The notes beneath the pieces were generated by a model. That model had not been told where the DNA came from. It worked only from the letters and a program-made list of their open reading frames with translations, and made no database searches. From positions 1 through 64,000 of the forward strand of contig JAPOWH010000029.1 of assembly GCA_026707735.1 (NCBI GenBank): DNA of 64,000 nucleotides, written 5' to 3'. This document shows positions 3,312 through 51,500 of the stretch, piece after piece (the stretch's first letter is position 1; each line of letters starts with the position of its first letter). Origin of the DNA: Gammaproteobacteria bacterium. Its GTDB lineage: Bacteria > Pseudomonadota > Gammaproteobacteria > Pseudomonadales > Azotimanducaceae. The position numbers were made by a program, and so were the translations under genes.

Positions 3312-3439
3312 CTTGCTATCCAAAATTACTGTACCTAACAGCAGTACGGCCCTGAATGGAGGAAAGAATGCCACCTGCTTCCTCAAAGGTGGCATGGGAC
3401 ATCCGTAACACTAGCTGCCGTTATCCCTGCGACAGAATT

Positions 3440-4552: not shown

Positions 4553-4553
4553 C

Positions 4554-4982: not shown

Positions 4983-5094
4983 GCTTGACAGCCAACGACT
5001 CCTGTTAGTGAGATCATGCAAACGCTCGACGCGAATCCTTCGCACCCTAAAAGAGTGCTTGAGGGGTCGCGAGAACTCTAGGTGTGTGCGACGG

Positions 5095-15081: not shown

Positions 15082-15162
15082 CATTTGCTACTTGCTAAGA
15101 TTAAACTGGATATTTGTACATATTTCCTTCAAATTGCTTCTAGTTGGATTGTCAATTCATCA

Positions 15163-15930: not shown

Positions 15931-15973
15931 TTGTCTAGAGAGAAAAGGGAGCGGCATAACACACGGACTACCG

Positions 15974-16060
15974 TGGTGCCTGAGGAGAGACTCGAACTCT
16001 CACGGTGTTGCCACCACCAGATTTTGAGTCTGGCGCGTATACCAATTTCGCCACTCAGGC
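15974..16060 (-). tRNA. tRNA-Leu (anticodon CAA)
   Basis: Reading the minus strand, the acceptor stem GCCTGAG pairs with CTCAGGC, followed by discriminator A and an encoded CCA. The anticodon stem-loop CCAGA-CTCAAAA-TCTGG gives anticodon CAA (codon UUG). A long variable arm, as in class II tRNAs, precedes the T-loop GTTCGAGTC. A tRNA-Leu near queA is also found in Pseudomonas-like genomes. Confidence 0.96.
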
Positions 16061-16110
16061 ATGCGCGAAAATTATATTGACTAGGGTTGTTTCTAAGCTT
16101 GGACAAAGGT

Positions 16111-16809: not shown

Positions 16810-16813
16810 CCTC

Positions 16814-32972: not shown

Positions 32973-34328
32973 TCAATCTTCCGTTGCGTTGCGACAGGAG
33001 AGCTCGCCCGTTGGATTTGGATTGTTGTGAACTATCCCCATCATGTGCTTCAGCCTGTCTGATAGGAGTTCGTAGATGTCATCGGGAACATGCAGATTAG
33101 CGCTTGACTGTTCGTGCAAAGCGCGAATGAAATGCCGGTTGTAGTGGCACCGCATTCCGTACCTTGTACCAGTCACGGTTCGTCGCCCGCCGCAATGTAG
33201 CACACGAGTGTCAGTAATAATGCAACTACCGGCAGGGGCGCAAATCGCAACCAACCCGGGCTCACCATCCACCAACTCAAGAAGATTGGCTCCCAAACCA
33301 AAAATAGTTTGTCCATCGGAAGTGCGATGCGACCCCGGAACTACATAGGTTGCCCCGTTTTCTAAATCAAAGTCGCTAAAGCACCATATGATTAAGGAGC
33401 CAAATGGAAACTGCGGATAGGGCAGTGGCATCAAGCCTTGATCAATGTGCAATTCCTGCAAACCACCACCCTGGTGCACTATCGAACCATGGGCGCACCC
33501 TAGTCCAAACCCCTCGCCCATAATCTTGGTTAGCAACCGGTCAACAAGTGGTCCGCGCTGCGCGGCGGAAGCCTTGAACTCCACGAGGTCCCTAAACGCA
33601 GCTCCCTTGAGCACAAGATTGTTGACAAGCTGGGCCTGTTCGTTTCGGCTTGTCATGATTGCGTTGTTGGCGTGGCGCTCTGCTTCTGCCTGGTCCAGTA
33701 GACGGTCTAGCAGAATCTGAATCTGCTCTTCTGTTAGTGCACCTTTCACAACACAGTAGCCCCACCTGACAAAATCTGCCTCAAGCTGTGCTTCGTCGTC
33801 AGAAGAACGAGGTAGATAGTCGAATTCCGAGCTGTTACGAATGCGCCCAGCCTTCATTCGCTCTTTCGAAATCCCTGCGAGTTGCTTTAGCACCTTGCCC
33901 GCGCTAATGCTGCTAGTTTGCGAGTGGCCGTCCGAGTACGCGATCCCTTCTTGCATAGCAGTCTTCCACGAGCTATGACGATCTACAAGATCTTGCTTTT
34001 CTTTAAATTTGCGTAAATCCTCTCGCAATGCAGCATTTTCTGAGCGCAATCGCCGAATAGTTTCTTCGGCGTCGGCGACTGGCGGCAATGCACCCGATGC
34101 AGTTGAGGTAGCGTCTTCTTGCATGAAATAGGATAGTTCTTGCCCAGTCTTGGAAACAAACGCTAAGCAAAGAAAGTTGGATGATGTAGCTGCTTCTGTC
34201 GGTTCTTGAAGGTCGGTTATGTAACGGATTCGGACTGACGAATTGTGCCATATGTCGTATTCGGGAACCAAACCGGGCTGCTGACCGAGACGCTTTGGCT
34301 CATTTAACGAATCTGAATTCCGTGGCAT
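32973..34328 (-). CDS. Phytanoyl-CoA dioxygenase (PhyH) family protein
   Basis: This is an Fe(II)/2-oxoglutarate dioxygenase-like protein. The metal triad is visible: the His-x-Asp in LQELHIDQGL and the distal His in TDTRVLHCGGRRTVTG, followed by an Arg suited for 2-oxoglutarate. Residues near 90-115 form a predicted coiled coil (AEETIRRLRSENAALREDLRKF), which is unusual for the family. The N-terminus is uncertain: the frame is open to the ATG at 34328 (451 residues), but an ATG at 34124 (383 residues) gives a more natural start. The substrate cannot be read from the sequence. Confidence 0.8.
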   Translation of the reverse strand: MPRNSDSLNEPKRLGQQPGLVPEYDIWHNSSVRIRYITDLQEPTEAATSSNFLCLAFVSKTGQELSYFMQEDATSTASGALPPVADAEETIRRLRSENAALREDLRKFKEKQDLVDRHSSWKTAMQEGIAYSDGHSQTSSISAGKVLKQLAGISKERMKAGRIRNSSEFDYLPRSSDDEAQLEADFVRWGYCVVKGALTEEQIQILLDRLLDQAEAERHANNAIMTSRNEQAQLVNNLVLKGAAFRDLVEFKASAAQRGPLVDRLLTKIMGEGFGLGCAHGSIVHQGGGLQELHIDQGLMPLPYPQFPFGSLIIWCFSDFDLENGATYVVPGSHRTSDGQTIFGLGANLLELVDGEPGLVAICAPAGSCIITDTRVLHCGGRRTVTGTRYGMRCHYNRHFIRALHEQSSANLHVPDDIYELLSDRLKHMMGIVHNNPNPTGELSCRNATED

Positions 34329-35001: not shown

Positions 35002-35640
35002 CTAGTGCGACAACTCGAGTGTGATATAGCTCTCGAGTCTAGCTACCTCGTCCTCATCAACGTACTTGCCAATTTCGCGCCGAAACTGCTCTATGGACTT
35101 GTAGGGTCGGTATTCCTCGAATTCATGCACCATTCGGTCCGTCATACCCGGTATTGTCTTGAGGTCTTCACTTGATGCAGTGTTCAGATTTAGTGGAATA
35201 AACACATACTGCTCCAATCTTGCAACTTCCTCCTCGTCGACATATTTGCCGATCTCGCGCCGGAATTGCTCAATGGAGGTGTAAGGCCGATATTCCTCGA
35301 ATTCGTGTGCCATGCGGCTAGTCATTCCAGGTACAACCATGATTTCCTCTCGACTGGCATTGTTTAGGTCAATTTGGCGAAACAAATGTGCATAGACAGC
35401 TTCACGCTGCTCCCGTTCCAGAGAGTTTGCAAGCACCGAATCCAGTTGCTTTGCTGACAGGTATGGCCGTCCTGCAACGATAGCATCCACAATTTCTTCA
35501 CTCAGTTCTGGCAAACCCTTTAGAACACTTGGCTCCGCCAGATTGGGATCGAGAATCTCACCACGCTCTCCTGCCTGAGTCAATACCGTTCCTACACATA
35601 CCACGCACAACACAGCCGAAAGAATTTTCCGCAGTTTCAA
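35002..35640 (-). CDS. Secreted helix-hairpin-helix (ComEA-like) repeat protein
   Basis: The product has 212 residues with a Sec signal peptide (residues 1-23). Three HHH-like units follow. The last two, residues 91-150 and 151-210, are near copies of each other (each contains HEFEEYRPY and SIEQFRREIGKYVDE). ComEA-like HHH domains bind DNA in the periplasm during uptake, but no other competence genes are nearby. The strong internal duplication suggests recent expansion. It is co-directional with the ferric-reductase-like gene. Confidence 0.78.
   Translation of the reverse strand: MKLRKILSAVLCVVCVGTVLTQAGERGEILDPNLAEPSVLKGLPELSEEIVDAIVAGRPYLSAKQLDSVLANSLEREQREAVYAHLFRQIDLNNASREEIMVVPGMTSRMAHEFEEYRPYTSIEQFRREIGKYVDEEEVARLEQYVFIPLNLNTASSEDLKTIPGMTDRMVHEFEEYRPYKSIEQFRREIGKYVDEDEVARLESYITLELSH
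35011..35370 (-). repeat. Two tandem 180-base coding repeats in the HHH protein gene
   Basis: Units 35191-35370 and 35011-35190 encode 60-residue copies differing at few positions. Confidence 0.75.
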
Positions 35641-35703: not shown

Positions 35704-36196
35704 ATTCACGAGAATCTATCACATCCAAGCCGCTATGGCTGCGTTTGAGCCTATCAGAAAGCCACTTTAGGATTTGGCGGACTAACGCCGTAATGGGCCA
35801 GCGAGGTACTGATCAGGCGCCCCTTCGACGGATTACACGAGCGTATACGTAACCAAGATTGCAATTACAAATTGCTCGAATTCAAGTGAACACGTGGCAT
35901 GACCGAAACCTTGATTTACAGAATCGACCAGCTGTACTCGTACTGGTTACTTACTGTACTACGTAAACCAATTCGCGTTGACATTCCTGTCTGGAAAGAC
36001 AGTTTTCGTTTCGGACGCCCTATTGCAATCCAAGAGACTTCAGCTTGTGATGGCGATGTTGAGAGATCCAAGGAATCAGTCATCGGATGTCGAATTGGAT
36101 CAACGTTACCCACGAGCAATGTGCGCATTGACCTTCTTAGCATTGGCTGTATGATTAGGCATCGACGTTCGATGCCCCGCTCGAACAGGGAATCCC
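35704..36196. other. Stretch without a supported gene
   Basis: Nearly 500 bases separate the divergent HHH unit and the first solenoid gene. One 104-codon plus-strand frame (35899-36213) is unsupported. Promoters for both directions should lie here, but I see no clear element besides the Fur-like site just before. Confidence 0.45.
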
Positions 36197-38083
36197 ATGA
36201 AATCGTTTTTTAACAAGATATTCGGATCAAAAATCTCTTTCCTCTCAGGAGTCGTAGTGACAGCAGCGATTTTTGGGGCGGTGTTGCTTGCTTCTAATTT
36301 GACCACCAACTCTAGCGGCCAGCCGGCCGATACGGGATCGTTGTCCAAATCGAGCGTTGAGCAGCAATTGCGCGAAACATTAGCGTCGTCCGACGATGGC
36401 AGGACTGAGGATTCGGCGAGCAGTCTGTTCGAGCTGTCGCAACTAACGAGTGACTTTGCTCGTTCAGTGGCGCTGCATGGAATTTTGATAGAAGCAAACC
36501 AAAGGGATTTACGACAGCTGATTGAAGAATCAAACGAAATTACACCAAGTAGCCGCCAGCATAGTATTCAGGAAGCGATCTTTCAGCGCTATACGACAAT
36601 CGACCCTGCGAGCGCACTGCTTCGAGTTGAAGAAATGCCCGGCAACCGACATGGTCCCTTGGTAAGCGTGGTATTCAAAGAGTGGTCACAACTGGATTTG
36701 GACAAAGCTGTCGCCAAAGCAGCACAGCTCGAGGGATCGACCAAACTTGCCGCTCTGCGTGGAATATTGCAGTCTCGTGACGATCTATCAGACGACCTAC
36801 GACTGGGCATCGCTCGTGATATCGGGAACGAACAGTACGCGATAGATTTTCTTACGCAATCGCAAATGTCCGACTCCATAGACAACCCGCAGGCCGCGTG
36901 GAACACTTTAGTTAATGACGATCATGACGACATCGCTCAAATCGCCAGACTTGTCGAAGTTGCCCAATCATGGGTGGAACAAAGCGGATTCAGTGCATTA
37001 CAAGAGATAAACGAATCTCTCTCCAATTGGCAATCGCGCATGGCAGTCCTCGGTTCTGTCATTCATCGTTTGGCGCAATCCGATCCGGAAGGCCTGTTCA
37101 ACCAAGTTTTGAATTACGACCAAGACCGCAACAACTTCATCGCTACAACGCTTGTTCAAGCTTGGGTGGCATCGGATCCACACGCAGCCCTTGATGCTGT
37201 AGTCAACGTAGAGTCGGACCGTTTACGGCAAACACTCTTGGAGTCGATCGTTAATCGTTGGGCTTACAGTGATCCACACGCAGTTCTCGATGCCATCGAT
37301 TTGTTTCCTGAAGAGTCAAGAAGCATGGGAAGACGGACAGCCATTGTCGCTTTGGCTCGATCTTCTCCAGAAGAAGCATCTAGGCTACTGTCCTCCGTAA
37401 CAGGCAACAATTCTCGGTGGGATGTTGCACGCACCATTGCAAGCAGTTGGTCTCGTGAGGATGTATATGGCGCTTTGGAGTGGGTGTTGGATAGTCCGGA
37501 CGTTCAAGGCATGCAAAGCAGACTGCTAGAGGTCGTCTTGAACGAATTGACATCAGTTGACCCTCAACTTGCGATGGAAACAGCGTTGCAGCAACCAATT
37601 AGCGGCGATCAGCGCGGACTGGAGTCAATTGTTATAGCTCGGTTGGCAAACTCCGACATTCAAAAAGCCATTGAAATGCTCTCGCAAGTTCGAGATGGAC
37701 AGACAAAGTCGGCGGCTTACGCGTCAGTCGGTAGCGCGCTAGCAAGAAGCGGCGACATAGACAAAGCGCTCAAATTGGCAGGAAGTCTGTCCGATGGAAT
37801 GCAATCCGTCTACTATCAATCAGTTGTAAACGCTTGGGGACGCCGGGACCCTCAAGACTTGCTGGCATCTATGGACAGGCTCCCCACACCAGAGGTCAAA
37901 TCGCGTGCAGCAATGTCGCTGGTCTTCAATAGTCGCTGGCAGCGGGACCTGACCGAAGAGGACTTGGACTACGCCCGTTCCTTTCTGACAGAGCAAGATG
38001 CACGCTCGATAGAACGTGCAAGAGCGAGAGGCGGCTGGCAGCGAAACTCGGGAGGAGGACCTACGTCATTTCGTCGACGCTAG
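36197..38083 (+). CDS. Anchored alpha-solenoid repeat protein, paralogue 1 of 6
   Basis: The product has 628 residues. A single hydrophobic anchor (residues 11-32, LSGVVVTAAIFGAVLLA) is followed by a Ser/Thr/Asp-rich linker to about residue 75. A continuous helical array then carries repeats of roughly 33-36 residues bearing a W-x3-DP-x-x-AL-like signature (AWVASDPHAALDAV, RWAYSDPHAVLDAI, SSWSREDVYGALEWV, ELTSVDPQLAMETA). The C-terminus has the family end LTEEDLDYARSFLTEQDA. There is a GGGA ribosome-binding site before the ATG. It is likely periplasm-facing. The function is unknown; the fold suggests protein-protein interaction. Confidence 0.85.
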   Translation: MKSFFNKIFGSKISFLSGVVVTAAIFGAVLLASNLTTNSSGQPADTGSLSKSSVEQQLRETLASSDDGRTEDSASSLFELSQLTSDFARSVALHGILIEANQRDLRQLIEESNEITPSSRQHSIQEAIFQRYTTIDPASALLRVEEMPGNRHGPLVSVVFKEWSQLDLDKAVAKAAQLEGSTKLAALRGILQSRDDLSDDLRLGIARDIGNEQYAIDFLTQSQMSDSIDNPQAAWNTLVNDDHDDIAQIARLVEVAQSWVEQSGFSALQEINESLSNWQSRMAVLGSVIHRLAQSDPEGLFNQVLNYDQDRNNFIATTLVQAWVASDPHAALDAVVNVESDRLRQTLLESIVNRWAYSDPHAVLDAIDLFPEESRSMGRRTAIVALARSSPEEASRLLSSVTGNNSRWDVARTIASSWSREDVYGALEWVLDSPDVQGMQSRLLEVVLNELTSVDPQLAMETALQQPISGDQRGLESIVIARLANSDIQKAIEMLSQVRDGQTKSAAYASVGSALARSGDIDKALKLAGSLSDGMQSVYYQSVVNAWGRRDPQDLLASMDRLPTPEVKSRAAMSLVFNSRWQRDLTEEDLDYARSFLTEQDARSIERARARGGWQRNSGGGPTSFRRR

Positions 38084-38161
38084 TTCCCCCTTGGATCAAG
38101 CAATGCTTGACCCACTGTTGACCAGAAAATAACATACTTCCAGCCAGCAAACAGACTAATC

Positions 38162-40051
38162 ATGATGGAACATTCCAACGCCCACGACCGTCAGTTGCCA
38201 TGCAAAGAATTGCTCTCTACATTGTCGGGACTAGGTGCAATTGCCGCCATCCTTGTTGTAGTAGCTGGATGTAGCGATAGTAACCGCCAGAGCCTAGAAG
38301 ACGCTTCGGTCTCTGGCTCGACTAGCCGAGAAAAACCAACGACGCTCGACCAATCACGCAGCGTTCAAATGCAGGTCGAATCTCTGAGTGATCTAACTGC
38401 TTTTGACCGTGGATTCGATCGTTCCGTGGCGTTGCACAACCTACTTGCTGATGCAGACGAAAAGCGTTTGGTCAAATTGATCCAGCAGTCAAAGGAAATC
38501 GAACACTACAGTCAGCGTCGTAGTACTCAGAACGCCATTTTCCAACGATTCGCTTCATTGAATCCCAAAGCGGCGCTAACTCATGTAGCCACAATGCCGC
38601 GGTTTGAGCGCGAGACATTGGTGGCAACGACTTTCTCGCAATGGGCGTTAGAGGATCTAGAGGGCGCGACAGAGCATGCGATGTCGTTGGAAGGATTCCG
38701 GAAGCATGCGGCTCTCAGAGGCATTCTCCAATCGAGAGATGACCTATCGGAAGAGCTGCGCCGAGAAATCGCGCGAAAAGTAGGAAATGAACAGCTAGCA
38801 ATCGACTTGATCGCGCAGTCTAATCTAGCAGAGTCCATGGAAAGTCCTGAGCAGGCGTGGAGCACTTTAGTTAACGATGACATCCGCGATGCATCTCAGA
38901 CTGGACTGCTCATCCAAGTTGCAGAAGCGTGGTTCGACAAGAGTGGATTGAGCGTGCTGGACGAGATAAACCGGTCGATAGTTGACTGGCAGACTCGACA
39001 ATCCATTCTTAACGCGATAGTAGAGCAAGTGGTGCAGACAGCTCCGCGAGAAGCCTTTGACTTCGCGAGAGGCATGGAGGACGATGGAAGTCTTCTCTTG
39101 GTTGTAGCTAGAGCGTGGGCCAACCTAGATCCAGAATCGGCACTCGATGCGACTCAGACGGTTGATGCCGGTTTGCTACGCAGGAACTTAGAGTATTCGA
39201 TTGTGCAGGTTTGGGCTAGCACCGACCCTCACTTCATTCTCGAGAATCTTGATCGACTTCCCGAAACTTCGCGAGCTATGGCGCAGAGCCAAGCGATCAT
39301 GGCGATTGCCCGCACATCTCCCGAAGAAGCTGCCCACCTCATGGCAGGAATGGACGACGCCACATCCCGCTATTCTGTCGCGTACACCATATTGTTCAAT
39401 TGGTCTCGAACCGATGTGACTGCCGCATTGGACTGGGTCTTGAACAATAGCGATCTAAAGGACTTGCGAGAGCAATTGCTTCCGATTGTGTTGAATCGCC
39501 TCGCAAGTGTAGACCCAGAATTCGCGATGCAAACGGCCCTGAATCAGCCGATAGGTCGAAACGGCTCGGGCATGGAATACACCGTTTTGAGTTACATTGC
39601 TGCCAATGATCCGCAAAAAGCGCTTGCAATGCTCCCAAGAGTCCGTGAAGGGCAGACAAGCGTATGGGCTCACATCTCCGTCGGTGGAGCACTGGTGCGT
39701 GCTGGGCAGATTGACAGTGCGCTCAAACTTGCGTCCAACTTGGAAGGATCCGACCGAGAAAGGTACTACGGCAATTTGGTTAGCACATGGGCTTCAAACG
39801 ACGCGAAGAGTTTGTACGACAACATTGACCGGTTGCCTACGTCCGATGTCAAGTCAAGCGCCGCTCTCACGCTAATAACTTGGAACAGTTGGCAGAAGAG
39901 TCTCTCGCAGGATCAAGTTGACAGAGCAAAGACCTTTCTTACCAGTGACGACGCTGAGGCCCTTGAACAAGGTGACACACAGCGAACCTTAGGTTACCGA
40001 TTAGGAGTCGAGCACGGCTTCGTATTGCCGGCTCCCGCAGCGAGTCAGTAG
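38162..40051 (+). CDS. Anchored alpha-solenoid repeat protein, paralogue 2 of 6 (lipoprotein form)
   Basis: The product has 629 residues and aligns along its whole length with paralogue 1 (for example RSVALHNLL, AALRGILQSRDDLSEELRREIARKVGNEQLAIDLI, ARTSPEEAAHLMAGM). It differs at the N-terminus: the hydrophobic stretch ends in a lipobox (VVVAGC) followed by SDS, so the mature form is predicted to be lipidated rather than helix-anchored. A longer C-terminal tail ends FVLPAPAASQ. It starts 78 bases after paralogue 1, so the two may share a transcript. Confidence 0.85.
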   Translation: MMEHSNAHDRQLPCKELLSTLSGLGAIAAILVVVAGCSDSNRQSLEDASVSGSTSREKPTTLDQSRSVQMQVESLSDLTAFDRGFDRSVALHNLLADADEKRLVKLIQQSKEIEHYSQRRSTQNAIFQRFASLNPKAALTHVATMPRFERETLVATTFSQWALEDLEGATEHAMSLEGFRKHAALRGILQSRDDLSEELRREIARKVGNEQLAIDLIAQSNLAESMESPEQAWSTLVNDDIRDASQTGLLIQVAEAWFDKSGLSVLDEINRSIVDWQTRQSILNAIVEQVVQTAPREAFDFARGMEDDGSLLLVVARAWANLDPESALDATQTVDAGLLRRNLEYSIVQVWASTDPHFILENLDRLPETSRAMAQSQAIMAIARTSPEEAAHLMAGMDDATSRYSVAYTILFNWSRTDVTAALDWVLNNSDLKDLREQLLPIVLNRLASVDPEFAMQTALNQPIGRNGSGMEYTVLSYIAANDPQKALAMLPRVREGQTSVWAHISVGGALVRAGQIDSALKLASNLEGSDRERYYGNLVSTWASNDAKSLYDNIDRLPTSDVKSSAALTLITWNSWQKSLSQDQVDRAKTFLTSDDAEALEQGDTQRTLGYRLGVEHGFVLPAPAASQ

Positions 40052-40296
40052 TAGCCGCTCCGCAATCACTATTCAAACTGCGCATCGGCACGATAGTCTC
40101 AAGCAGGCTTGTTGCCCGTCGATGCAAGAGTGTATTTGAGCTTCTACATTCGTTAGGCAGCGGGCATTTCGTGCAGACATGGCGAGCCCAGGCAACACGG
40201 TCAAATGCATCAAGTTCTCCCAACCGCATTTCGCCGTGGTGGTGACGGGTGTAGAAACCACGAGACTAGGGACTTGCTGAAATCAAACGTACTCAC

Positions 40297-42096
40297 ATGG
40301 TCGACCTAAACACACTTAAATTCATTGCCATTGGATTTCTAGTAGGAGTACTGGCAACAATTGCAACTCTTCTCGGCGTGTCTGTCCTCAACTTGCCAGG
40401 GTTGTCTCAATCACCGAGATCTGATGTTCAAGCTGACTCGTCCAAAACTCCATACGGCGCAGCGGACTCCAAACTCACATCTAACACCTCGCAATTCGCT
40501 ACGCTTGACCACCTGCATGGGTTGACGGAAATCAAGAGCAACTTCCTGCGGGTGGCCACATTCCATGCCACGCTAGCAAGTGCCGATGAAGAGCAATTGG
40601 TCCGATTCATCGCACAGTCAAAACGTGTCTCTAATCCCTCACAACGGCAATGGATACAAGAGGCCATATTTTCGAGACTCACAAATCTCGATCCGAACAC
40701 GGCATTGGTCCAAGTCGAACAAATGCCCCATGCTTCCGCAATCGACCTCATGGAAACCATATTTGCAGAGTGGTCGCTTAACGATTTGCCCAGCGCTATC
40801 GATCACATAGAGAAATTAGAGGGCACGATGCGGCTGGCGGCAATGCGTGGATTACTTCTCACTCGTGATGACCTGTCCGAACAGGGTCGGCAAAATCTAG
40901 CAAAACGCCTAGGAAACGAGCTGTTGGCAGTCGACTTGAGCCAAGACTCGAAACTGACTCTTGCTCTCGATGATCCGAAGAAGGCTTGGCAGACAACTAT
41001 GGAAGATGCCCGTGCCAACATTTCTCAAGTTGACGACTTGATTCGTATCGCACATGCGTGGGTTGACAAGAGTGGGCTCTCGGCAATCGATCAAATCAGC
41101 GAATCGTTGACGTCATGGGAGATCCGTTCCACGGTTTTTAGCTCGATTCTTCACCGAATAGCACAAACAAATCCTGAAGAAGCTTTTCTACATGCGCTCA
41201 AATTTGAGGGAGATCACAACAACTACCTGCTCTCCATCCTGACACAAGAATGGGCAACTACCGACCCCGACGCTGCTATGTCAGCAATTGACGGCGTTGA
41301 ATCTCCAGTCTTGCGCAGCTACTTGTACGATTCCGTGGTAAGGGGATGGGCTGAGAGAAATCCTCAGGGAGTTCTGCAAGACTTAGGTTCGCTTCCCGAG
41401 AACTTCCAGGTACTAGCTCGAGAAGTCGCAATCCAGACTATTGCCAAAACCGAACCGAAAGAGGCAGCTCAACTAATTCCAAGTGTGGAGAACGAGAGCA
41501 GCCGCGCCGTGGTCGCGTTTTCGGTAGCGTCCAATTGGGCAAAACTAAACGCGCACGAGGCATTGGATTGGGTAATAAATGATCCTGAAGTCCGATCGAT
41601 GCGCAGAAATCTACTCGGTACGGTTCTTGAGGAACTTACTGAATTAGATCCACAGCTCGCACTCTCGACCGCTCTGGAGCAGCCTATAGAGACTGATCAG
41701 ATTGGTATGGAATCCCGAGTAATTACAAGGTTAGCGTGGACAGATGTTGAGAAAGCACTCGAATTGTTGCCAAGAGTTCGTGCAGGTCAAACCAAAATTC
41801 TTGCCTATGCTTCCGTTGGAGGCGCTTTGGTCCAAAATGGCAAGGCGCTTGAAGCGTTGGAAATGGCGAATCAGTTGCCCGAGAACCAACGAAATCGTTA
41901 CTACGAAACTGTCGCGAATTCGTGGGCGCGTCACGACCCCGTTGATCTACTGAGCAACATCGAAAAGCTCCCCACCCCTGAGATTCGCTCACACGCTGCG
42001 AGGTTTCTGGTCGATTCCAACACGTGGCATCGCGTCCTTACTGATGATCAGGTCAAACACGCCAAGACATTTCTACCAGACGAACAGTTACGCTAA
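40297..42096 (+). CDS. Anchored alpha-solenoid repeat protein, paralogue 3 of 6
   Basis: The product has 599 residues, the shortest copy. It has an N-terminal transmembrane anchor (FIAIGFLVGVLATIATLLGV), a short linker, then the repeat array (EWATTDPDAAMSAI, NWAKLNAHEALDWVI, LTELDPQLALSTALEQP) and the conserved end LTDDQVKHAKTFLPDEQ. It shares RDDLSEQGRQNLAKRLGNE and SNPSQRQWIQEAIF with copies 1 and 2, which places it in the same subgroup. The 245-base gap before it shows no other gene. Confidence 0.85.
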   Translation: MVDLNTLKFIAIGFLVGVLATIATLLGVSVLNLPGLSQSPRSDVQADSSKTPYGAADSKLTSNTSQFATLDHLHGLTEIKSNFLRVATFHATLASADEEQLVRFIAQSKRVSNPSQRQWIQEAIFSRLTNLDPNTALVQVEQMPHASAIDLMETIFAEWSLNDLPSAIDHIEKLEGTMRLAAMRGLLLTRDDLSEQGRQNLAKRLGNELLAVDLSQDSKLTLALDDPKKAWQTTMEDARANISQVDDLIRIAHAWVDKSGLSAIDQISESLTSWEIRSTVFSSILHRIAQTNPEEAFLHALKFEGDHNNYLLSILTQEWATTDPDAAMSAIDGVESPVLRSYLYDSVVRGWAERNPQGVLQDLGSLPENFQVLAREVAIQTIAKTEPKEAAQLIPSVENESSRAVVAFSVASNWAKLNAHEALDWVINDPEVRSMRRNLLGTVLEELTELDPQLALSTALEQPIETDQIGMESRVITRLAWTDVEKALELLPRVRAGQTKILAYASVGGALVQNGKALEALEMANQLPENQRNRYYETVANSWARHDPVDLLSNIEKLPTPEIRSHAARFLVDSNTWHRVLTDDQVKHAKTFLPDEQLR

Positions 42097-42228
42097 CAGC
42101 AAGGATTCGAAACGTGGGAATTTGGAAGATATCATTTGAATGCTCTAGCCGATTGCCAAGTGTCGCTGAATTGACCACACAATCTTAGTGGAATTCCCTG
42201 TAGTCACAACCTCCCAATACTTGAATCC

Positions 42229-44052
42229 ATGAAGTTTGCTAGATCACGAATTGTCTCTCTAGCATCGCTCTCGTTCGCATTCTTCCTTGGCATAGGCGTG
42301 GGTGCACTCGTTTCTTGGCTATTGGGTTCCTATGGGACCCAAGATCTCCCGACAAATGTGGATGCCGCAATCCCCATTAACAGCACCGATTCCCAGGCTC
42401 GAAAGGAAAACTCGGTGGCTACAGCTGCTATTGCTTCCCACTTGAATAGTCTCACGGTTAGGAGTCTTGAGGAACTAAAGCAAATTGAAAGCCCATACGA
42501 CCGCAGCTTGGCACTGCGCAACACTTTGGTCGGTTTGGACATAGAACAATCGCTGAATCTCCTGGACAAGTCCTTAAACCTACCGGTTGGCAGCTCTCGA
42601 GATGAAATGCAATCCGCAATAATCCAGCGACTTGCACAAGTAAGCCCTAAGACAGCCCTATCACGTGCCCTCGAATTGAATGCACGGATTTCAAACCAGC
42701 TTGTTTCACGCGTTTACGTTGAGTGGGCACACTCCGATTTGAATGGAGCGGTCTTGGCTGCACTTCCACTTGATCAGAAATCTAAGGAATCTGCCTTAAA
42801 CGCTATTCTGAATGAGAGAACTGATCTCCCCGCTGAGGCCCTGCGAGCGATTGCGCGCGACCTAGGCAACGAACAGATGGCAATCAGGCTCATTGCACAG
42901 CGTGAAATCGAAGACGCACTCACGAAACCCGAGGAGAAATGGGACGAACTAGTTGCCAAGTTCCAGGACGATAGTCAAAATTCTTGGGATCTTGCTCGCG
43001 TGGCGAAAAGCTGGGTCAAGACGAACGGATTGAGCGCGTTGGATCAGATCGCAACCGCAATTACAAATTTGCAGACAAGGGCCGAAGTCTTGCGAAGTGT
43101 GCTTAGATCAGTTGCCGAGACAGATCCACTTGCTGCATTTGAGTACGCATTGAACTCTGAAAATGATCCATCTGATTCTATTGTCTTTAGTGTTACGTCG
43201 GTATGGGCTCAGTCTGATCCACGAGCAGCTTTGGCTGCCGTGTCCGCTATAGACGATAACTCACGGCGTCACCAGTTGGAAGAGTCCATTGTCCTATTGT
43301 GGGCGACTGAAGAACCAATTGAGGTTTTGGATGGTATTGGGTCACTTCCGGCGACACATCAAGTTTTGGCAACAGTCGAAGCGGTCAGTGCTATAGCTTG
43401 GATCTCGCCCCAAAATGCGTCTATGAAAGTGACTGAATTGACACCAGGAGCGGCAAAGGCGAGGGCTGCATCCATGGTTGTGGCGGTGTGGTCGCTAGAA
43501 GACCCGAAGAAAGCTCTGGACTGGATTCTCAACGAGCCTTCTGTGGAGGACTTACGAACGCAATTGCTTGCGACGAATATTCCCGAGCTCGTTAAGGTTG
43601 ACCCAGAACTTGCTATGTCCACAGCGCTTGCGCTGCCGCTCGCTGACGGAGAGAAAATTGAATCCCTCGTTATTCATGCACTTGCCGTCAACGACGTGGA
43701 TTCGACAATCAAGTTCCTACCTCAGCTGCGCACTGAAGGTTCCCGATCGCTTGCGTACCAAAGCATTGGTCAATCCTTGGTAAACACGGGCAGATTTGAG
43801 GAAGTCGTTAGTTTCGCCTACGAAGAGGTTCCGGATGCTCACCTAGCGGATTACTTTAGCTCCATCGTCGATTCTTGGGCACGGCAGGATTCCGTAGAGT
43901 TGCTCAGATCGATGGATCGATTACCCTCTGGATCAATCAGATCAAAAGCGGCGTCAGCTATCCTGAGCCAGGAACGATCGTCATTGACTGCCAATCAACT
44001 TGAACGAACAAGGCAGTTTCTCACGGCACAGGACGCCAATTCGCATGAGTAA
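42229..44052 (+). CDS. Anchored alpha-solenoid repeat protein, paralogue 4 of 6
   Basis: The product has 607 residues. The anchor helix is LSFAFFLGIGVGALVSWLLG. After the linker the second-subgroup signature begins: LEELKQIESPYDRSLALRNTL, IIQRLAQVSPKTALSRALEL. The repeat array shows VWAQSDPRAALAAV, VWSLEDPKKALDWIL and LVKVDPELAMSTALALP. The end is LTANQLERTRQFLTAQDA. It is nearer in sequence to copies 5 and 6 than to 1-3. Confidence 0.85.
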   Translation: MKFARSRIVSLASLSFAFFLGIGVGALVSWLLGSYGTQDLPTNVDAAIPINSTDSQARKENSVATAAIASHLNSLTVRSLEELKQIESPYDRSLALRNTLVGLDIEQSLNLLDKSLNLPVGSSRDEMQSAIIQRLAQVSPKTALSRALELNARISNQLVSRVYVEWAHSDLNGAVLAALPLDQKSKESALNAILNERTDLPAEALRAIARDLGNEQMAIRLIAQREIEDALTKPEEKWDELVAKFQDDSQNSWDLARVAKSWVKTNGLSALDQIATAITNLQTRAEVLRSVLRSVAETDPLAAFEYALNSENDPSDSIVFSVTSVWAQSDPRAALAAVSAIDDNSRRHQLEESIVLLWATEEPIEVLDGIGSLPATHQVLATVEAVSAIAWISPQNASMKVTELTPGAAKARAASMVVAVWSLEDPKKALDWILNEPSVEDLRTQLLATNIPELVKVDPELAMSTALALPLADGEKIESLVIHALAVNDVDSTIKFLPQLRTEGSRSLAYQSIGQSLVNTGRFEEVVSFAYEEVPDAHLADYFSSIVDSWARQDSVELLRSMDRLPSGSIRSKAASAILSQERSSLTANQLERTRQFLTAQDANSHE

Positions 44053-44368
44053 TAAAACTAGGAAAGAGTCAAGGATTTCTTGATCGAGCTAAGTCTCTAT
44101 GAGGATCTGTCTCCAAACATCAAAACGAACAAGTATCGATTTCATAAATAATTGATTTATCGTACTAAATCCTGTGTATTGCAGTTGCTCATCCAACTAA
44201 AGCAACGGTTCCACCACACACTCGGTTATTCAATAACAGTAGATTGAGTCTAACTGATCCTCTAAGTTTGTTTCACACTCTGAAATGCGACAATTTAGCT
44301 GTGCATTTGACCAATCAAGCTGAGAGGCATAGCATCTTGCTAATCTGCTTCCGCTACCGGTACAGCCC
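44053..44368. other. AT-rich intergenic stretch between paralogues 4 and 5
   Basis: These 316 bases have no coding frame that I can support. They are clearly AT-richer than the genes around, so a promoter for copies 5-6 is plausible. No clear terminator hairpin is found. Confidence 0.4.
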
Positions 44369-46240
44369 ATGACATCTTTCACATCGCGAAGGAAACGCTA
44401 TGCGCTGCCAGCTCTTACCTTTCTACTTGGCATTGGATTCTCTTGTGCCGTCTATTGGTTACTTCTAGCTCCAAACAAGAGCAACCAGCTCCAAGAAGCA
44501 ATCACCGAAATCCCTAGCAAATACGACACTTCCAAAACCCAAGATCAACACGCGTCCGCGCAGGCATTGGGCCCAGACCAAAGTTCTAGCGCGACACCTA
44601 CAAGTCTAATTGACATCGAACAAATCAACAGCCCGTTTGATCGGAGCTTAGCGCTGCGAGACCTGCTCGCCAACACCGATGAGGAAGGTGCATTTGACCT
44701 ATTTACCCAATCCTTGAGCCTACCTAGCCATCCTGGCAGTCGCGAACTACAGACTGCAATCATTCAGAGACTGGCACAAATCAATCCTTCACGGGCACTA
44801 ACTCATGCCACTAAGTTGGACAAACGTGAACCATTTTTGTCCGCACAATTCGTTCCCAACGTCTATAAAGAGTGGGCTCAGTCAAATTTGAACGAAGCCA
44901 TTACAAGCGCGAAATCATTGGAGGAAAGCACAAGGAGGTCCGCTTCTGAAGCGATTCTGCAGGAACGAATCGATCTACCCGAAGAGAGGCTTCGTGAAAT
45001 CGCTCGAGATCTTGGCGATGAACAGATAGCGGTTGCACTCATCAGACAGCTTGAGGTCAACAAAGCTATTGAGAATCCGGAAAGAAATTGGAGCGGACTC
45101 GTATCCAGTCTGCAAGACGACGTGCAAAACTCGTGGAATATTTCTCGAGTTGCTATTTCTTGGATTGAGGAGAGCGGTTTTGGCGTCATGGATCAAATTG
45201 TTTCATCGCTAACAAACTCACAGACCAAGCTACAAGTAGTGCGAAACGTCCTCAATTCCATAGCCGAAACCGATCCTGCCACGGCATTTGAGTATGCATT
45301 GACTATTGAGGACGATCTCTACAACCTGACCCTTACGGGCGTTGCAGACACATGGGCTCGGTCGGATCCAAGAGCCGCGCTGGCTTCGGCTTCGCAGGTT
45401 GAGCAGTCAACACTGCGCAACCAAATACAGGATTCAATTATTCGTACATGGTCTCATGCAGAACCCCGTGGAATCTTGAAGAGCGCAGGCGAGTTACCTG
45501 AGAGACTAAGTGCGTTAGCCACACGATCCGCAATCTGGTCCATTGCATGGACCTCGCCTAGAGACGCTGCCGAGCTTGTATCCGAGCTGGAAGCAGGACA
45601 GGAAAAGACACAGATTGCAACGAACGTAGCGATTACTTGGGCAAGAGGAGACGTTAGAGCTGCGCTGGATTGGATTCAAACGGAACCTTCAAATTCAGAT
45701 ATTCAGCCTCAATTGCTTGAGTCAATCATGGGTAGGCTTGCGCCGGTTGATCCAGAGCTAGCCATGGAAATCGCACTGGAACAGTCAATAGCCGACGGCG
45801 GGACGGGAATGGAGTTGCAAGTTGTGAGTGCATTGGCGATGGAGGACGTCGAAAAAGCTCTGGAACTCCTTCCTCAAACACGGAAGGGTCAAACCAGGTT
45901 GCGGGCATATCAAAATGTAGGTCGCGCTCTGGCACGAAATAACAATATTGATCAGGCACTTGAACTGCTTCAACAAGTATCCGATCCCGAGAAGTCCTCG
46001 GTCTTTTTGCCAATAGCTGCAGCGTGGGCAAGAACGGATTCTGAAGGACTACTCGATTCCATTGACCGTCTCTCCTCGCAAGAGCTAAAGTCGAAGGCGG
46101 CAATGGCAATAGTGCTCTCCAACCGCGAATGGCAAAAGGTGCTAAGCGACGAACGGATTGAAGAGGCACGCAAGTTCCTTGAAGAAGGCGACCGGCAACT
46201 GCTTGAGGAAGGGGAAGCCAGTACTTTTCAATGGTGGTAG
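44369..46240 (+). CDS. Anchored alpha-solenoid repeat protein, paralogue 5 of 6
   Basis: The product has 623 residues with a basic N-terminus (TSRRKRY) before the anchor ALTFLLGIGFSCAVYWLLLAP, predicting N-in/C-out topology. The array includes TWARSDPRAALASA, TWSHAEPRGILKSA, TWARGDVRAALDWI and LAPVDPELAMEIALEQS. The end is LSDERIEEARKFLEEGDRQLLEEGE. It shares the AVYWLL anchor with copy 6 and SPFDRSLALRDLL with copy 4. Confidence 0.85.
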   Translation: MTSFTSRRKRYALPALTFLLGIGFSCAVYWLLLAPNKSNQLQEAITEIPSKYDTSKTQDQHASAQALGPDQSSSATPTSLIDIEQINSPFDRSLALRDLLANTDEEGAFDLFTQSLSLPSHPGSRELQTAIIQRLAQINPSRALTHATKLDKREPFLSAQFVPNVYKEWAQSNLNEAITSAKSLEESTRRSASEAILQERIDLPEERLREIARDLGDEQIAVALIRQLEVNKAIENPERNWSGLVSSLQDDVQNSWNISRVAISWIEESGFGVMDQIVSSLTNSQTKLQVVRNVLNSIAETDPATAFEYALTIEDDLYNLTLTGVADTWARSDPRAALASASQVEQSTLRNQIQDSIIRTWSHAEPRGILKSAGELPERLSALATRSAIWSIAWTSPRDAAELVSELEAGQEKTQIATNVAITWARGDVRAALDWIQTEPSNSDIQPQLLESIMGRLAPVDPELAMEIALEQSIADGGTGMELQVVSALAMEDVEKALELLPQTRKGQTRLRAYQNVGRALARNNNIDQALELLQQVSDPEKSSVFLPIAAAWARTDSEGLLDSIDRLSSQELKSKAAMAIVLSNREWQKVLSDERIEEARKFLEEGDRQLLEEGEASTFQWW

Positions 46241-46489
46241 GATTCTCTCGATTGTGCGAGCCGTACACGCGAGAAGACAATCCCGATCCAACCTACCCTT
46301 CTGCGACGAATTTTGGGCTTGTCTAACCCAATTCGCCGAATGTGCCCCGTTCATTCGTAGCACCACCAATTCGAATTGATGGACATTCGGGAGCTCAAAC
46401 AAACCGTCTAATCGTTTGCATGTTGTTGGCATGTTGACCCCAATTGCTCTTACAAATACCATGCCACTAACCCCTACTCGTCCAAATTC

Positions 46490-48376
46490 ATGAAATCAAC
46501 TAGATCGCAAGGTACTTTTGTTGCACTTCTAACACTCGCGTTCGTACTTGGAATTTGTACTGCTAGCGCTGTGTATTGGCTACTCGTTGCACCTGCCAGA
46601 AGCGACGATATGGCAGCTGCCACCGAACCAAGTTCAGTGGAAGAAGAAACGGAGCCCAAACCCATAGAGCAAATTGACCACGACGTGACTTCTAGCTCGA
46701 GTCAGACCGCAATGAAGACGGTGCGAAATCTAGATGAACTTCAAGAAATTAAGAGTGCGTTTGAGCGTAGCGTTGCACTTCGCAATCTGCTACTTGAATC
46801 AAATGAAGCGCAGGTAGTTGAACTATTGGCACAATCGGAAGACCGTGCGCAAACCAACTATCGATTCGGGATGCAGGTGGTTGTCGTTCAGCGACTGGCA
46901 CAACTCAATCCCAAGCGAGCGCTGTCACGTGTGTTGAGAATGGATCCGCAGGAGTACAACGTTTGGCAGTTCATAACAAGTGTGTTTGAGGAGTGGGCGC
47001 ATTCAGATTTGGATGAAGCGGTTCTACAGGCCAGAACAATCGATGAAAACTGGAAGGAAGTGGCATTGCAGGCGATAGTCCAAGAACGAATGGACCTCTC
47101 TGAAGAGATTCTACTTGCCATCGCGCGAGACCTTGGATATGAACAGGTTGCAGTTGGAGCCATAACAGGGCGAAAAATCGAAGACGCACTGGAGGACGAT
47201 CCTGAAAGAGCCTGGAACGAACTGGCCATCGATCTACAAAACGACCGCCAGCACATGAGGAACATTGCTCGAGTGGCAACTGCGTGGGTTGAACAAGACG
47301 GAACGGGGGTATTGGACCAAATAAATCAATCGTTAACCAACAACGATACTAAGAGGTATGTACTTCGCAACGTCTTGAGCAACGTTGCCCGTTCCGACCC
47401 GGCCGGCGCGTTTAGATTCGCGGTAACTGTCGATAACGACCAATACAGTCACATCGCCTCTGGAGTGATAGATACATGGGCCCAAACTGATCCTCAAGCT
47501 GCCCTTGCAGCGGCATCCGAAGTGGAGAGACGGACTTTGAGAAGGCAGTTGGAGGAGTCAGTTGTTAGAGCCTGGGGTTACTCGAAGCCCAGAGAGGTCC
47601 TAGACAACATCGATGTCCTACCCGCGCATCTTCAACCAACAGCGATATCGACAGCAATGAGCCACGTAGCTAGAAATTCTCCGGAGGAGGCCGCGGCACT
47701 GGTTGTCGGGATGAATAGTGGAAATACAAGAACCGCAGCCGCGATCGCTGTAGTCGGCGCTTGGGTAAATGGTGACCATGAGGCTGCCCTTGAATGGATC
47801 CTAAACGAGCCTACGAATAAGGAGATAAAGACTCAGCTTCTGCAAGGAATCTTGTGGCAACTTGTGAGAATTGACCCTCAACTTGCAATGGATACCGCGG
47901 TCGCGCAACCTATCGAACAGGATGATGCAAGGCGGACTGGAATGGCGTTGGAAGTGACCGTCATTTCATCTCTAGCCTATTCTGATTTAGACAAAGCTAT
48001 CGAGTTGCTTCCTCAAGTAAGGAAGGGTCCTTACAGACTGCAGGCTTACCAAATGGTGAGTGGAGCCATGATTCGCGATGGAGATGTTGACGAAGCACTC
48101 AACTTGGCCCAACAGCTCGCCGAATCCGACAGAGAGAGTTTCTATATGTCATTGGCCACGGCTTGGGCTGGAACCGATCCCGAAGGGCTGCTCAATTCGA
48201 TGAATCGACTGCCTTCCAAGGGCGTTAAGTCGAGAGCTGCGATGATGCTTCTGTCGTTCAACCGACACCAAGAAAACTTGACTGAAGAGCAAGTCGAGAA
48301 CGCCAAGAAACATCTCACCGACGAAGACGCAAAAGCACTTGAGGAGGGAGGAGAAAACGTATATTACGGCTGGTGA
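46490..48376 (+). CDS. Anchored alpha-solenoid repeat protein, paralogue 6 of 6
   Basis: The product has 628 residues. The anchor is LTLAFVLGICTASAVYWLLVAP, followed by an acidic linker (SVEEETEPKPIEQID). The array includes TWAQTDPQAALAAA, AWGYSKPREVLDNI, AWVNGDHEAALEWIL and LVRIDPQLAMDTAVAQP. The family end is LTEEQVENAKKHLTDEDAKALEEG. It is the last copy, about 215 bases before the 1,400-residue membrane protein gene on the same strand. Confidence 0.85.
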   Translation: MKSTRSQGTFVALLTLAFVLGICTASAVYWLLVAPARSDDMAAATEPSSVEEETEPKPIEQIDHDVTSSSSQTAMKTVRNLDELQEIKSAFERSVALRNLLLESNEAQVVELLAQSEDRAQTNYRFGMQVVVVQRLAQLNPKRALSRVLRMDPQEYNVWQFITSVFEEWAHSDLDEAVLQARTIDENWKEVALQAIVQERMDLSEEILLAIARDLGYEQVAVGAITGRKIEDALEDDPERAWNELAIDLQNDRQHMRNIARVATAWVEQDGTGVLDQINQSLTNNDTKRYVLRNVLSNVARSDPAGAFRFAVTVDNDQYSHIASGVIDTWAQTDPQAALAAASEVERRTLRRQLEESVVRAWGYSKPREVLDNIDVLPAHLQPTAISTAMSHVARNSPEEAAALVVGMNSGNTRTAAAIAVVGAWVNGDHEAALEWILNEPTNKEIKTQLLQGILWQLVRIDPQLAMDTAVAQPIEQDDARRTGMALEVTVISSLAYSDLDKAIELLPQVRKGPYRLQAYQMVSGAMIRDGDVDEALNLAQQLAESDRESFYMSLATAWAGTDPEGLLNSMNRLPSKGVKSRAAMMLLSFNRHQENLTEEQVENAKKHLTDEDAKALEEGGENVYYGW

Positions 48377-48591
48377 TTGAGTATGGCACCTAAACGTACT
48401 AGGTGGCATTCTCACACGGTTTTGCGACACATCCAATGTATGGCGCATCATTAGTAATAGGTAGGTCAAGCACAGCGTAAGTAACCGTTCAAGTGCAGGA
48501 ATCCACCTCGGTATACAGTCTGCAAAGAACGCTTGAAGTTGCGCAACAATTTGTGATGCAAAGCAAACTAAAGCGCGTTTGGAGGACCAAA

Positions 48592-51500
48592 ATGAGGAGT
48601 GGCAAGCTACTTGCGAAAGCAGTCGGACTGATTGCACTTGTGGTCATTGCATCGGCGCCGGTCGCATTTGCGGATGAGGTTTACGTTCCAGACGAGTTAA
48701 AGCCCTGGGTCGATTGGGTACTACACGACCAGAAGCAATTCGATTGTCCCTACGATGCACAGGGCGGTGGTCGAGTTGGTTGCGTGTGGATTCGCAAGAT
48801 AGAGGTCAATGTAAGGCGCAATGCGCCAACCGGAGCATCATTTCGCATCGATGCATATGCATTTGTCGACTCCGATCTCTCTCTACCCACTTCAAACGCG
48901 CACAAGCCTCACACCGTGCTACTTAACGGAGAGCCTGCGACGCTCGGTGGAGGCAACCAAACTCCGCGGGTAGGACTGTCCGCTGGCCCCCACGAGATCA
49001 CGGGGGAATTGACCTGGAGGCTGGAAGAAGAACCTGAATTTCTAAACGTCCCTCGTGCCGCGCTCGTAACGCTTTCCGTGGACACGGAAGGTAGGGTGCG
49101 TCCTTTTCTCGACAACAACCATTTGAGATTGTGGCTCACCCGAACGATGGAGCTTGCAGGTGAAGCTGATGAGTTCCTTGCAGATACCCTGGGCGTAAAG
49201 GTTTTTCGTCACCTTGTCGACGGATTGCCGCAACTTCTGACCACCTACATCGAACTGGCGGCAGGCGGTCGACCTAGAGTCGTCGAGTTGGGCAAGGTAG
49301 TGTCTGATGAATTCAGCTTGATCGCGCTCCGATCACAAATTCCAGCCAACATAAACGACGATGGAATCCTAAGTGTGTTGGTCTCTCGGGGTGAGAACAC
49401 CGTCGTGGTCGCCTCCAGAGCCAACACGTTGATCGACTCGTTTAGCTACCAGCGTGCAAGTAGAGAGTGGCCAGACGAGGAGATCTGGGGGTTCCAGCCA
49501 ACCCGCAATCTCCGCGTTGTCAGCGTCGAGGGTCCACCTCGCGTCAACCTCGAGCAGGTTCAAGCTCCGGGACCCCTATCACAGTCAGGTTCTGACATCT
49601 ACGGTTACGTATTGTCTGGCGATACACCATTGACTCTGATTGAGGAACAACGAGGAAATGTCAATCCCAACCCGGCGCGCTTCAACATAACCAGGAATCT
49701 TTGGTTAAGTTTCGACGGCAACTCCTATGTCGTGGCCGACGACATCCATGCCCAAACCGATTCTGAAATCCGCATCGCCGCAAGCTACCTTCCCGGTAAG
49801 GTCGAGGTGGATGGGCAGCTTCGATTGATTTCGTTTGAAGACCCAGTTGAGAAAGAGAGTCCCGGCATCAACCTGAATCAACGGAATGCGAACATTCATG
49901 CTGTGAGCGTGTTCGAGGGACGAGGCACTATGCTGGCCAACGGTTGGCACGTTGATGCCAATTCGCTACGAGCGACTCTGCATCTGCCGCCGGGCTGGCG
50001 TTTGCTTTGGACTAACGGAATCGACAACGTAGAGCAAACCTGGTTGTCGAAGTGGTCGATCTGGGACGTGTTCCTATGTCTACTGCTGGTGGCGTTCGTT
50101 TTCCGGATTGGAGGAATCTGGTGGGCTGTCACCATTTTCCTGACAGTAGTACTCACCTATCACGAGAGTGCACTACCTACCATAGGCTGGCTTGTACTCG
50201 CCGGACTGATCTATCTAACAAATCTCGTTAACGCAAGTTGGTTTCGATCAGCAACTACAGTTGTCTATTGGACGTTTGCGGTCGCAGCAGCCGTCGTAAC
50301 GGTCTACTTTGCCGCTCTCAGCGCCATGCAAGCGGTTTTCCCTCAACTGGATTCTCCAACTCCGTATTCGCCAGTTGCATACATGGCTTCATCGAGGGCA
50401 GATTCGCCGCAAACAGAACAAGTCTCAGTCCAGTCACGAAGCTTAACCGACACTCAACTCACCAAGCAGATGACGGTAGTCACCGGCTCACGGTTGCCGT
50501 CACCACCTGCAGACTCCATAGTAGACCATCTGACTGGGTCGGATCGTGGCTCAAGTGATTCCATATTGACGTCGAGCGGGGGCGCGACCGACTTCGACAC
50601 TACGACACAAGGTGTAACAATTCAAACAGGACCAGGTACACCTAATTGGCAATGGAGTTCGGCTGAATTGAATTGGTCGGGTCCTGTAACCAAGCACCAG
50701 ACGATTTCCTTTGCCTTGATGCCTCCGTGGGCAACACGAATTGTCGCTGGACTTGGTGCGGTGCTTGCCCTCGTTGCAATTGGCTTTTTCATCGCAATGC
50801 GGTCGGCCACTGTGGCGGGAAATCTCCCCGGCTTCTTGCGAGGGGTACTGCCCGTCTTGGCTATTTTGCTGCTACTTCCCACGGATGTCTTGGCTGATAC
50901 ACCCGACTCGAGAATTCTTCAGGAATTGCGTACGAGACTAACAGAGTCGCCCGATTGCTTGCCGGATTGCGCCTATCTTGAAGACGTACGTGTCGAAGTT
51001 AACGAAGATTCTCTGGAAATGAACCTTCTTATACATGCCGAAGAGACTATTGCAGTCGCGTTGCCCTCCGGGATGAATTCTTGGAACCCTAGTAGTGTCT
51101 TGGCCAACGGAAAGGAGACGCCGCTACAGAGAGATGCTGATGGTTCTCTCTATGTTCTTTTGGATCGTGGCAAGCACACCATTGATATTGACGCAAATAT
51201 AGGAGATCTAAATCGATTCGAGATCGAGTTTCCGCTTAAACCAAGTCTGATTGACATCGGTGCTACTGCTTGGATCATCGAAGGACTAGTCGGAGGCAAG
51301 CTCAAGGGTTCTAATTTAGCTTTTTCCAAGCTGTCCGAAGACAGCGACGAAGAGGCCCGACCCGAACCGGCATTGCTATCAGCTTCGCAGCCGATCCAGC
51401 CCTATGTTTCAGTAATGCGCCGCATGAGCCTCGCGTACGAACCCACGGTGATCACGACGGTTGTCCGGATTGCTCCCGAAACTGAACCGTTCACGGTTCA

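Follow-up and report, generated by a model that had tools for sequence, protein, structure and literature searches.

Why does a bacterium carry six long, mutually homologous genes in a row, and what might their products do? This question is raised by a stretch of 64,000 nucleotides (the window; contig JAPOWH010000029.1, positions 1 to 64,000 of the forward strand, assembly GCA_026707735.1) from a gammaproteobacterium of the Azotimanducaceae, in which six complete homologous open reading frames (ORFs) on the + strand occupy 36197-48376. A sequence-only reading of the window had described them as full-length paralogues of 599-629 codons that fill 12 kb, with N-terminal membrane or lipid anchors, linkers and helical repeats, and had suggested that the array itself is a system. 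Our analysis bears out most of the description and not the system. The six genes account for roughly one in nine of the family's ORFs in their genome, and we favor, with a probability of roughly 0.55, a dispersed, lineage-expanded family of inner-membrane-anchored periplasmic alpha-solenoids with a role as non-catalytic binding scaffolds, diversified by duplication.

A family of predicted anchored alpha-solenoid proteins

The six genes, with product lengths in amino acids (aa), are as follows; pLDDT is the predicted local distance difference test score of the AlphaFold models.

36197..38083, + strand: copy 1, 628 aa, N-terminal membrane helix, linker and two-helix repeats predicted, clade of genes 1-3, mean pLDDT 79.6
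38162..40051, + strand: copy 2, 629 aa, lipobox-like N terminus (LVVVAGC), solenoid part homologous to the other copies
40297..42096, + strand: copy 3, 599 aa, clade of genes 1-3
42229..44052, + strand: copy 4, 607 aa, clade of genes 4-6
44369..46240, + strand: copy 5, 623 aa, clade of genes 4-6
46490..48376, + strand: copy 6, 628 aa, predicted helix at 7-33 and linker (both of low confidence), then two-helix repeats at about 81-620

Intergenic gaps are only 78-316 bp, and all pairs of the six proteins are homologous by BLASTP (E 1e-90 to 1e-167, across 532-630 residues), the match of gene 4 with genes 1 and 2 starting only at about residue 75. The six-way alignment gives 30-42% identity and separates two subgroups, genes 1-3 and genes 4-6. 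The proteins do share a C-terminal end, as had been noticed, although with four residues and not three before its alanine (L-[TS]-x-[EDN]-x4-[AT]-x2-[FH]-L).

AlphaFold models of copies 6 and 1, built with the six window proteins only, predict the same architecture, namely an N-terminal helix, a low-confidence linker and a solenoid of about 16 helix pairs. The copy 6 model has a mean pLDDT of 81.6, with solenoid blocks mostly at 80-95, and its repeats are spaced by about 33 residues on average (range 31-37), somewhat less than the 35 first estimated. Across 175 full-length copies of the family, the proposed W-x3-D-P-x-x-A-L signature was recovered by repeat phase in the form W-A-x-x-D-P-x-x-A-L, the commonest residues being W(-5), A(-4), D(-1), P(0), A(+3) and L(+4). 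Conservation in this set is highest at W, A, P, G, L and F columns and at a single D of the motif, with no enzyme or catalytic signature among them, and helix phases expected to be exposed vary faster than core phases, exposure being judged from phase.

The predicted models of both copies thus show the antiparallel two-helix repeats of about 34 residues that define the TPR-like alpha-solenoid fold class, and membership in a named family did not follow. None of the six proteins reaches any Pfam or NCBIfam cut-off, in agreement with the earlier impression that they lack a named relative. TPR matches in some of them are weak and below threshold, the best (TPR_12) scoring 18.0 bits against a gathering threshold of 30.1, so that none falls within the Pfam TPR clan. 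A profile of the six searched against the PDB found mainly designed PPR proteins through a short stretch at about profile columns 476-561; of the 16 matches to PPR or solenoid proteins, 15 have no stretch that passes alone, and there is no PPR hit in Pfam. Foldseek placed generic alpha-solenoids (SF3B, karyopherins, PPR) at the top of its PDB matches, with query TM-scores up to 0.28 among the 50 top matches listed, and no viral structure matched at E<=0.001. Literature searches returned no paper on the repeat motif and none on the family that could be recognized from its title or the start of its abstract.

The anchor also agrees with the first description. The hydrophobic N-terminal stretch was scored as a membrane helix in five of the six window copies, and in copy 2 it ends in LVVVAGC. 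Among 102 full-length copies, 86 score as having a membrane helix, 13 have a lipobox-like match and 3 are unclear; the lipobox pattern is loose and several of the 13 matches lie where the helix itself is made of small residues, so the number of true lipoproteins may be low, copy 2 being the clearest candidate. The N-terminal side of the helix is more positive than its C-terminal side in 160 of 175 copies and a second strongly hydrophobic window occurs in only six of them, which is the pattern predicted for a type II (N-in, C-out) inner-membrane protein. Beyond residue 75 the same copies carry a mean net charge of -30, and cysteine is rare past residue 60 (0.27 per copy). Within the helix, one column holds glycine in 90% of 172 copies and the position four residues earlier in 56%.

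A dispersed repertoire in one genome

Searching the window's own genome with copy 6 gave 59 match pieces at E<=0.001, or 60 with all candidates scored; here and below, such counts are of match pieces, which have not each been verified as a gene (in this genome, 60 pieces correspond to 55 ORFs). The 55 family ORFs comprise 45 of full length (at least 540 aa), seven of 472-516 aa, six of which start with a hydrophobic helix, and three fragments, two of them probable halves of one copy (L054); further pieces of 82 and 172 aa were dropped by the gene caller. Together the ORFs total 97.5 kb, or 2.9% of the 3.4 Mb genome, and random pairs of copies share 26% identity on average. The paralogous expansion and diversification proposed for the window are supported, and the expansion is larger than described.

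The copies lie in 32 runs (17 single, 11 double, two triple, one of four and the window's six), a count that rests on a simple gene caller and in which one ORF divides some single runs from another run. These runs have 59 distinct immediate neighbors, 49 of them of at least 140 aa, and a Pfam scan of 48 of these (the remaining one is a paralogue of a scanned carboxypeptidase-regulatory-like protein) showed that most of them are housekeeping or metabolic genes of unrelated function, among them those for phosphofructokinase, DNA polymerase III alpha, NuoF and the dehydrogenases of glutamate and isocitrate. Single copies make up 17 of the 32 runs, mostly beside such genes, and frequent isolated copies with unrelated neighbors are what the sequence-only reading had itself named as telling against a system. 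Moreover, the window's site, recognized by shared flanking genes, holds two copies and not six in a related genome (G003, L063), and a system of fixed array size and fixed neighbors has to be given up.

Restriction to one clade and growth by duplication

All genomes sampled belong to the window's own phylum; possible relatives elsewhere are the W-A-x-x-D-P repeat proteins of Verrucomicrobia and Planctomycetes. In the set formed by the own genome and 37 relatives, 19 of 38 match at 1e-5. Ten are rich in the family, with 40 (G011), 46, 50 (G009), 51, 60 (own genome), 64 (G005), 77 (G012), 83, 99 (G014) and 116 pieces (G008, a genome of 2.7 Mb), all candidates being scored. Nine of 17 genus-mates are rich (40-116 pieces), and the other eight have 0, 0, 1, 3, 3, 3, 6 and 6. 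In a tree of valyl-tRNA synthetase (ValRS), one branch splits the ten rich from seven poor species (support 83/88, midpoint root; one of the seven is represented by a partial ValRS and G001 gave none), which is most simply read as one main expansion. Of 81 genomes sampled from the wider taxonomic family, 27 have a match, three of them from the same genus; the best match outside the genus scores 127 bits and one genome (G324) has 14 pieces. At the level of the order, six of 244 genomes match, two of them outside the taxonomic family (at most 5 candidates scored per genome), and at the level of the phylum the own genome is the sole match among 398 (at most 3 candidates scored per genome); both samples may miss distant or weak members. 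Fourteen further genomes, reached through their ValRS loci, gave one weak match and 13 without any.

Copy numbers at shared loci indicate how the family grew. Five poor genus-mates have one locus in common, with one copy in G015, three in G010, six in G017 and at least two in G001, where the contig ends; in G016 two apparent halves of this locus lie on two contigs, and the three copies of G004 are at a different locus. Furthermore, an array of 13 copies is common to G008 and G012, and 11 of its positions are one-to-one orthologues in conserved order, the two others being cut by the ends of the fetched stretches. Together, these loci point to growth by tandem duplication, with some arrays old and stable.

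Purifying selection and paired duplication

Selection was measured as the ratio of nonsynonymous to synonymous substitution rates (dN/dS) in reciprocal best pairs among G002, G005, G008, G012 and G014, dropping pairs with dS<=0.05 or >1.2; the pairs share species and hence are not independent, and this analysis, like that of paired copies below, used fetched loci. The median dN/dS is 0.275 (0.16-0.42) in 61 solenoid orthologue pairs and 0.118 (0.01-0.62) in 23 flanking-gene pairs. The solenoid orthologues are under purifying selection, yet they change faster than the genes flanking them, and positive selection was not seen in any of the 61 pairs. In 59 pairs the linker has a dN/dS of 0.46, compared with 0.25 for the solenoid.

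Three loci have copies that resemble the next but one far more than the adjacent copy, which makes the duplicating unit there two genes, A and B. Identities two apart and between neighbors are 61% and 22% at L053 in the own genome and 53% and 33% at L224 in G007. The third locus, common to G005, G012 and G014, gives 44 vs 27% in G005 (L227), 37 vs 27% in G014 and, in G012, 34 vs 29% over the whole array and 41-46 vs 26-28% in its first part. Additionally, genes within several pairs overlap by 4 bp, resembling translationally coupled genes.

A proposed role and what weighs against it

These features suggest a model in which the membrane helix, single-span and in a few copies possibly replaced by a lipid, would hold a solenoid that is probably dimeric through a small-residue (GxxxG-like) face, while the flexible linker would project an acidic rod of about 16 two-helix repeats. 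The differing surface of each copy could then bind a differing partner, and tandem duplication, in places of the A-B pair, together with dispersal would have produced a repertoire of about 40-115 members.

A candidate partner is a second dispersed family, of large membrane proteins (c0), whose members have 1140-1200 aa with six to seven predicted helices in the first 300 residues or so, followed by about 850 residues; from this topology c0 may be ABC-2-like, and no HExxH motif was found in five members. The own genome has 20 matches to it, and the other rich genomes have between 5 and 31. Its counts follow the solenoid counts over 24 genomes (Spearman 0.89) and also over the 14 outside the expanded clade (0.80, P 6e-4). 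Examples from the own genome are:

L047:7368-10808, - strand: c0 gene
L032:1105-4653, - strand: c0 gene
G000:C6:88502-99083: three c0 genes in a row

Nine further c0 loci include three with tandem groups and one with an ABC ATPase gene beside it. Three c0 genes flank four of the 32 own-genome solenoid runs (L032, L047 twice and L054), an adjacency with P about 0.008 under assumed gene numbers, and c0 is likewise adjacent to a solenoid pair of G324 (L218) and to the G004 trio (L235). If c0 is the partner, the solenoids could serve as client-binding adaptors for export or envelope assembly. We treat this partnership as a lead, possible and unproven.

Several observations weigh against the scaffold reading and its extension to c0. 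The copies show no invariant exposed patch that would point to a shared binding site, and a conserved glycine in a transmembrane helix is not by itself a sign of dimerization. For c0, searches of Pfam (four members, none above cut-off), NCBIfam (five members) and the PDB (one member) gave no match that would support the ABC-2-like reading, and 28 of the 32 runs have no c0 neighbor. The correlation of c0 with solenoid counts comes from related genomes picked by hand and counted in pieces, and within the ten rich genomes rho falls to 0.05; common ancestry, or genomes that generally tolerate duplication, may thus lie behind the overall figure. Regarding the A-B unit, most arrays are plain tandem ones: the signal is absent from the window, L058, L062, L068, L226, L223 and L232 and hardly present at L231, and the third A-B locus shows none in G008 and G002, where partial copies were omitted and the register shifted.

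Accounting for these points, a periplasmic scaffold or recognition role, which had been among the first suggestions for the array, is still the general reading we favor, now detached from any conserved array. A much more specific version of it, a genus-level periplasmic recognition repertoire of about 40-115 solenoids with a shared dimerization face, divergent rods, A-B co-inheritance and co-amplified c0 partners, appears doubtful to us. We know of no combinatorial, modular client-handling system of that kind in Gammaproteobacteria.

Alternative explanations

The alternative that survives best, which we nevertheless consider unlikely, is that the solenoids reach the cell exterior as a surface or host-interaction repertoire, in the manner of the eukaryotic-like repeat proteins of host-associated bacteria, with copy number following host or predator variation. 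It would fit the fast evolution of the linker and of the likely exposed positions, the wide differences in copy number between close species (50-116 pieces in G009, G005, G012, G014 and G008) and the two runs that adjoin a WD40-like gene, whose matches are below curated cut-offs, and an Ig-repeat/autotransporter gene. Two metagenome-assembled genomes (MAGs), IRC4_bin_23 and RHO1_bin_72, have the top ValRS identities (59-60%) among the best 80 of at least 594 matches, and their labels are presumably sponge MAG prefixes; however, both fall outside the genus on the ValRS tree, and one has a single weak solenoid match and the other none. Furthermore, the anchor resembles an inner-membrane type II helix, and each retained orthologue pair shows, on average, purifying selection.

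An improbable alternative, drawn by analogy with the SusD alpha-solenoids of Bacteroidota, would make the proteins periplasmic binding components that feed uptake systems. Anchored alpha-solenoids in large paralogous numbers would suit it, the L050 run adjoins a TonB-dependent receptor gene, receptors of the same cluster lie within the G329 and G340 loci, and another run adjoins a gene for a TonB C-terminal domain. However, Pfam searches of the six proteins gave no SusD match at E up to 1. The 48 scanned neighbors include no receptor besides that of L050, which faces the array, so that the two do not form one operon; other genes stand between receptor and solenoids in G329 and G340, and the anchor is mostly a membrane helix.

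Selfish or neutral amplification, in which copies of little function spread by recombination with one another, could explain the rapid change in copy number, the scattered positions and the few split or truncated copies (three fragments in 55 ORFs). It is likewise improbable in view of the dN/dS range of all 61 orthologue pairs and the 11 ordered one-to-one pairs in the long array of G008 and G012. In addition, no link to phages, plasmids or PHROG was found: copy 6 had no tblastn match in phage and plasmid records at E<=0.001 and no relative in the viral contigs searched, and two PHROG matches (E 0.01 and 0.053, one member each) were taken as chance. Lastly, an anti-phage defense or polymorphic recognition array, another early suggestion, would suit a large variable repertoire of binding-type proteins and is very improbable, since PADLOC matched 0 of 6 proteins at E up to 0.1, neighbors are mostly metabolic and no effector domain was found.

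Neighboring genes

Around the window's array, the following features were noted.

32973..34328, - strand: phytanoyl-CoA dioxygenase-like gene upstream of the array; a relative marks the same locus in G003
36128..36155, + strand: promoter-like TTGACC-16-TATGAT preceding copy 1
48493..52794, + strand: 1433-aa protein without Pfam or NCBIfam family, single-copy in the genome, adjoining the shorter array in G003

The 1433-aa protein was considered as an operon partner of the family and rejected: being single-copy and found beside an array only here and in G003, it is a locus marker rather than a partner. TTGACC stands 44-69 nucleotides ahead of the ATG in five of the six window copies (1, 2, 4, 5 and 6), and from these positions the copies may have separate promoters of their own; promoter-like matches in the array region are not above shuffled sequence (11 found, mean 11.6 in shuffles). 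A family-wide promoter or regulon motif was also rejected, TTGAC being upstream of 44 of 173 copies and 75 of 399 other genes. Directly upstream of the array, 35002-35640 (- strand) encodes a ComEA-like protein with repeated helix-hairpin-helix motifs (HHH_3, three stretches). Farther downstream, 54689-59578 (- strand) is a single ORF of 1629 aa for a fused acyl-CoA carboxylase, in which carboxyltransferase domains (ACCA, Carboxyl_trans) precede the full set of biotin carboxylase domains.

Among the immediate neighbors of the runs, few kinds recur, and thinly: thioredoxin-like proteins (3), AAA_14/DUF4143 ATPases (2), alpha/beta hydrolases (2) and c0 (three genes), together with two luciferase-like monooxygenases that flank one run on both sides. 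One PhyH gene was found among the 48 scanned, and no sigma-factor Pfam match, so that a sigma/anti-sigma pairing, one lead for W-A-x-x-D-P proteins, was dropped. AAA_14/DUF4143 ATPase genes occur near solenoid runs in three genomes (L035:9723-10964, L053:13407-14582, also L062 and L212), the cluster being close to copies in G007 and G010 too. The Ig-repeat/autotransporter-like protein is encoded at L037:2-5581 and the WD40-like protein at L049:4516-5637. Five paralogous proteins of 661-771 aa surround an A-B-A-B solenoid array (L052:8696-11002; L053:43-2358, 2705-4990, 14733-16970 and 17018-19000), and the one scanned has carboxypeptidase-regulatory-like domains. In G010 and G017 a 761-aa sulfatase gene lies within the solenoid cluster (L212:12032-14317 and L232:16361-18646, + strand), with a Pfam Sulfatase match for the first.

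Significance and comparison with known systems

The point of interest is the genome-wide repertoire and not the six-gene layout. In G008 the solenoids may take up 7% of 2.7 Mb, as estimated from its 116 pieces corrected by the gene-to-piece ratio of the own genome. That small genomes keep so large a load under purifying selection suggests a diversified function of some importance, probably one connected with the envelope. In this regard, the clade structure and the co-abundant c0 make function testable by comparing sister species; c0 is a family separate from the solenoids, co-abundant with them and sometimes adjacent.

With the TPR, Sel1 and PPR superfamilies the solenoids share a predicted superhelix of stacked two-helix repeats of about 31-37 residues; they differ from them in their W-A-x-x-D-P-x-x-A-L signature and in reaching no Pfam or NCBIfam cut-off. 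The SusD-type alpha-solenoid lipoproteins of Bacteroidota are membrane-attached binding proteins with many divergent paralogues, and the family described here likewise appears to consist of membrane-attached solenoids in many divergent paralogues, but it lacks a SusD domain and a regular adjacent SusC-type receptor (1 of 48 neighbors), and its anchor is mostly a membrane helix. Lastly, eukaryotic-like repeat proteins (ANK, WD40, TPR) are reported to be enriched in sponge symbionts (PMC9531527). The likeness lies in the many binding-type repeat proteins per genome, whereas the repeats of the symbionts are assorted domains and those described here form one homologous, anchored family conserved over its full length.

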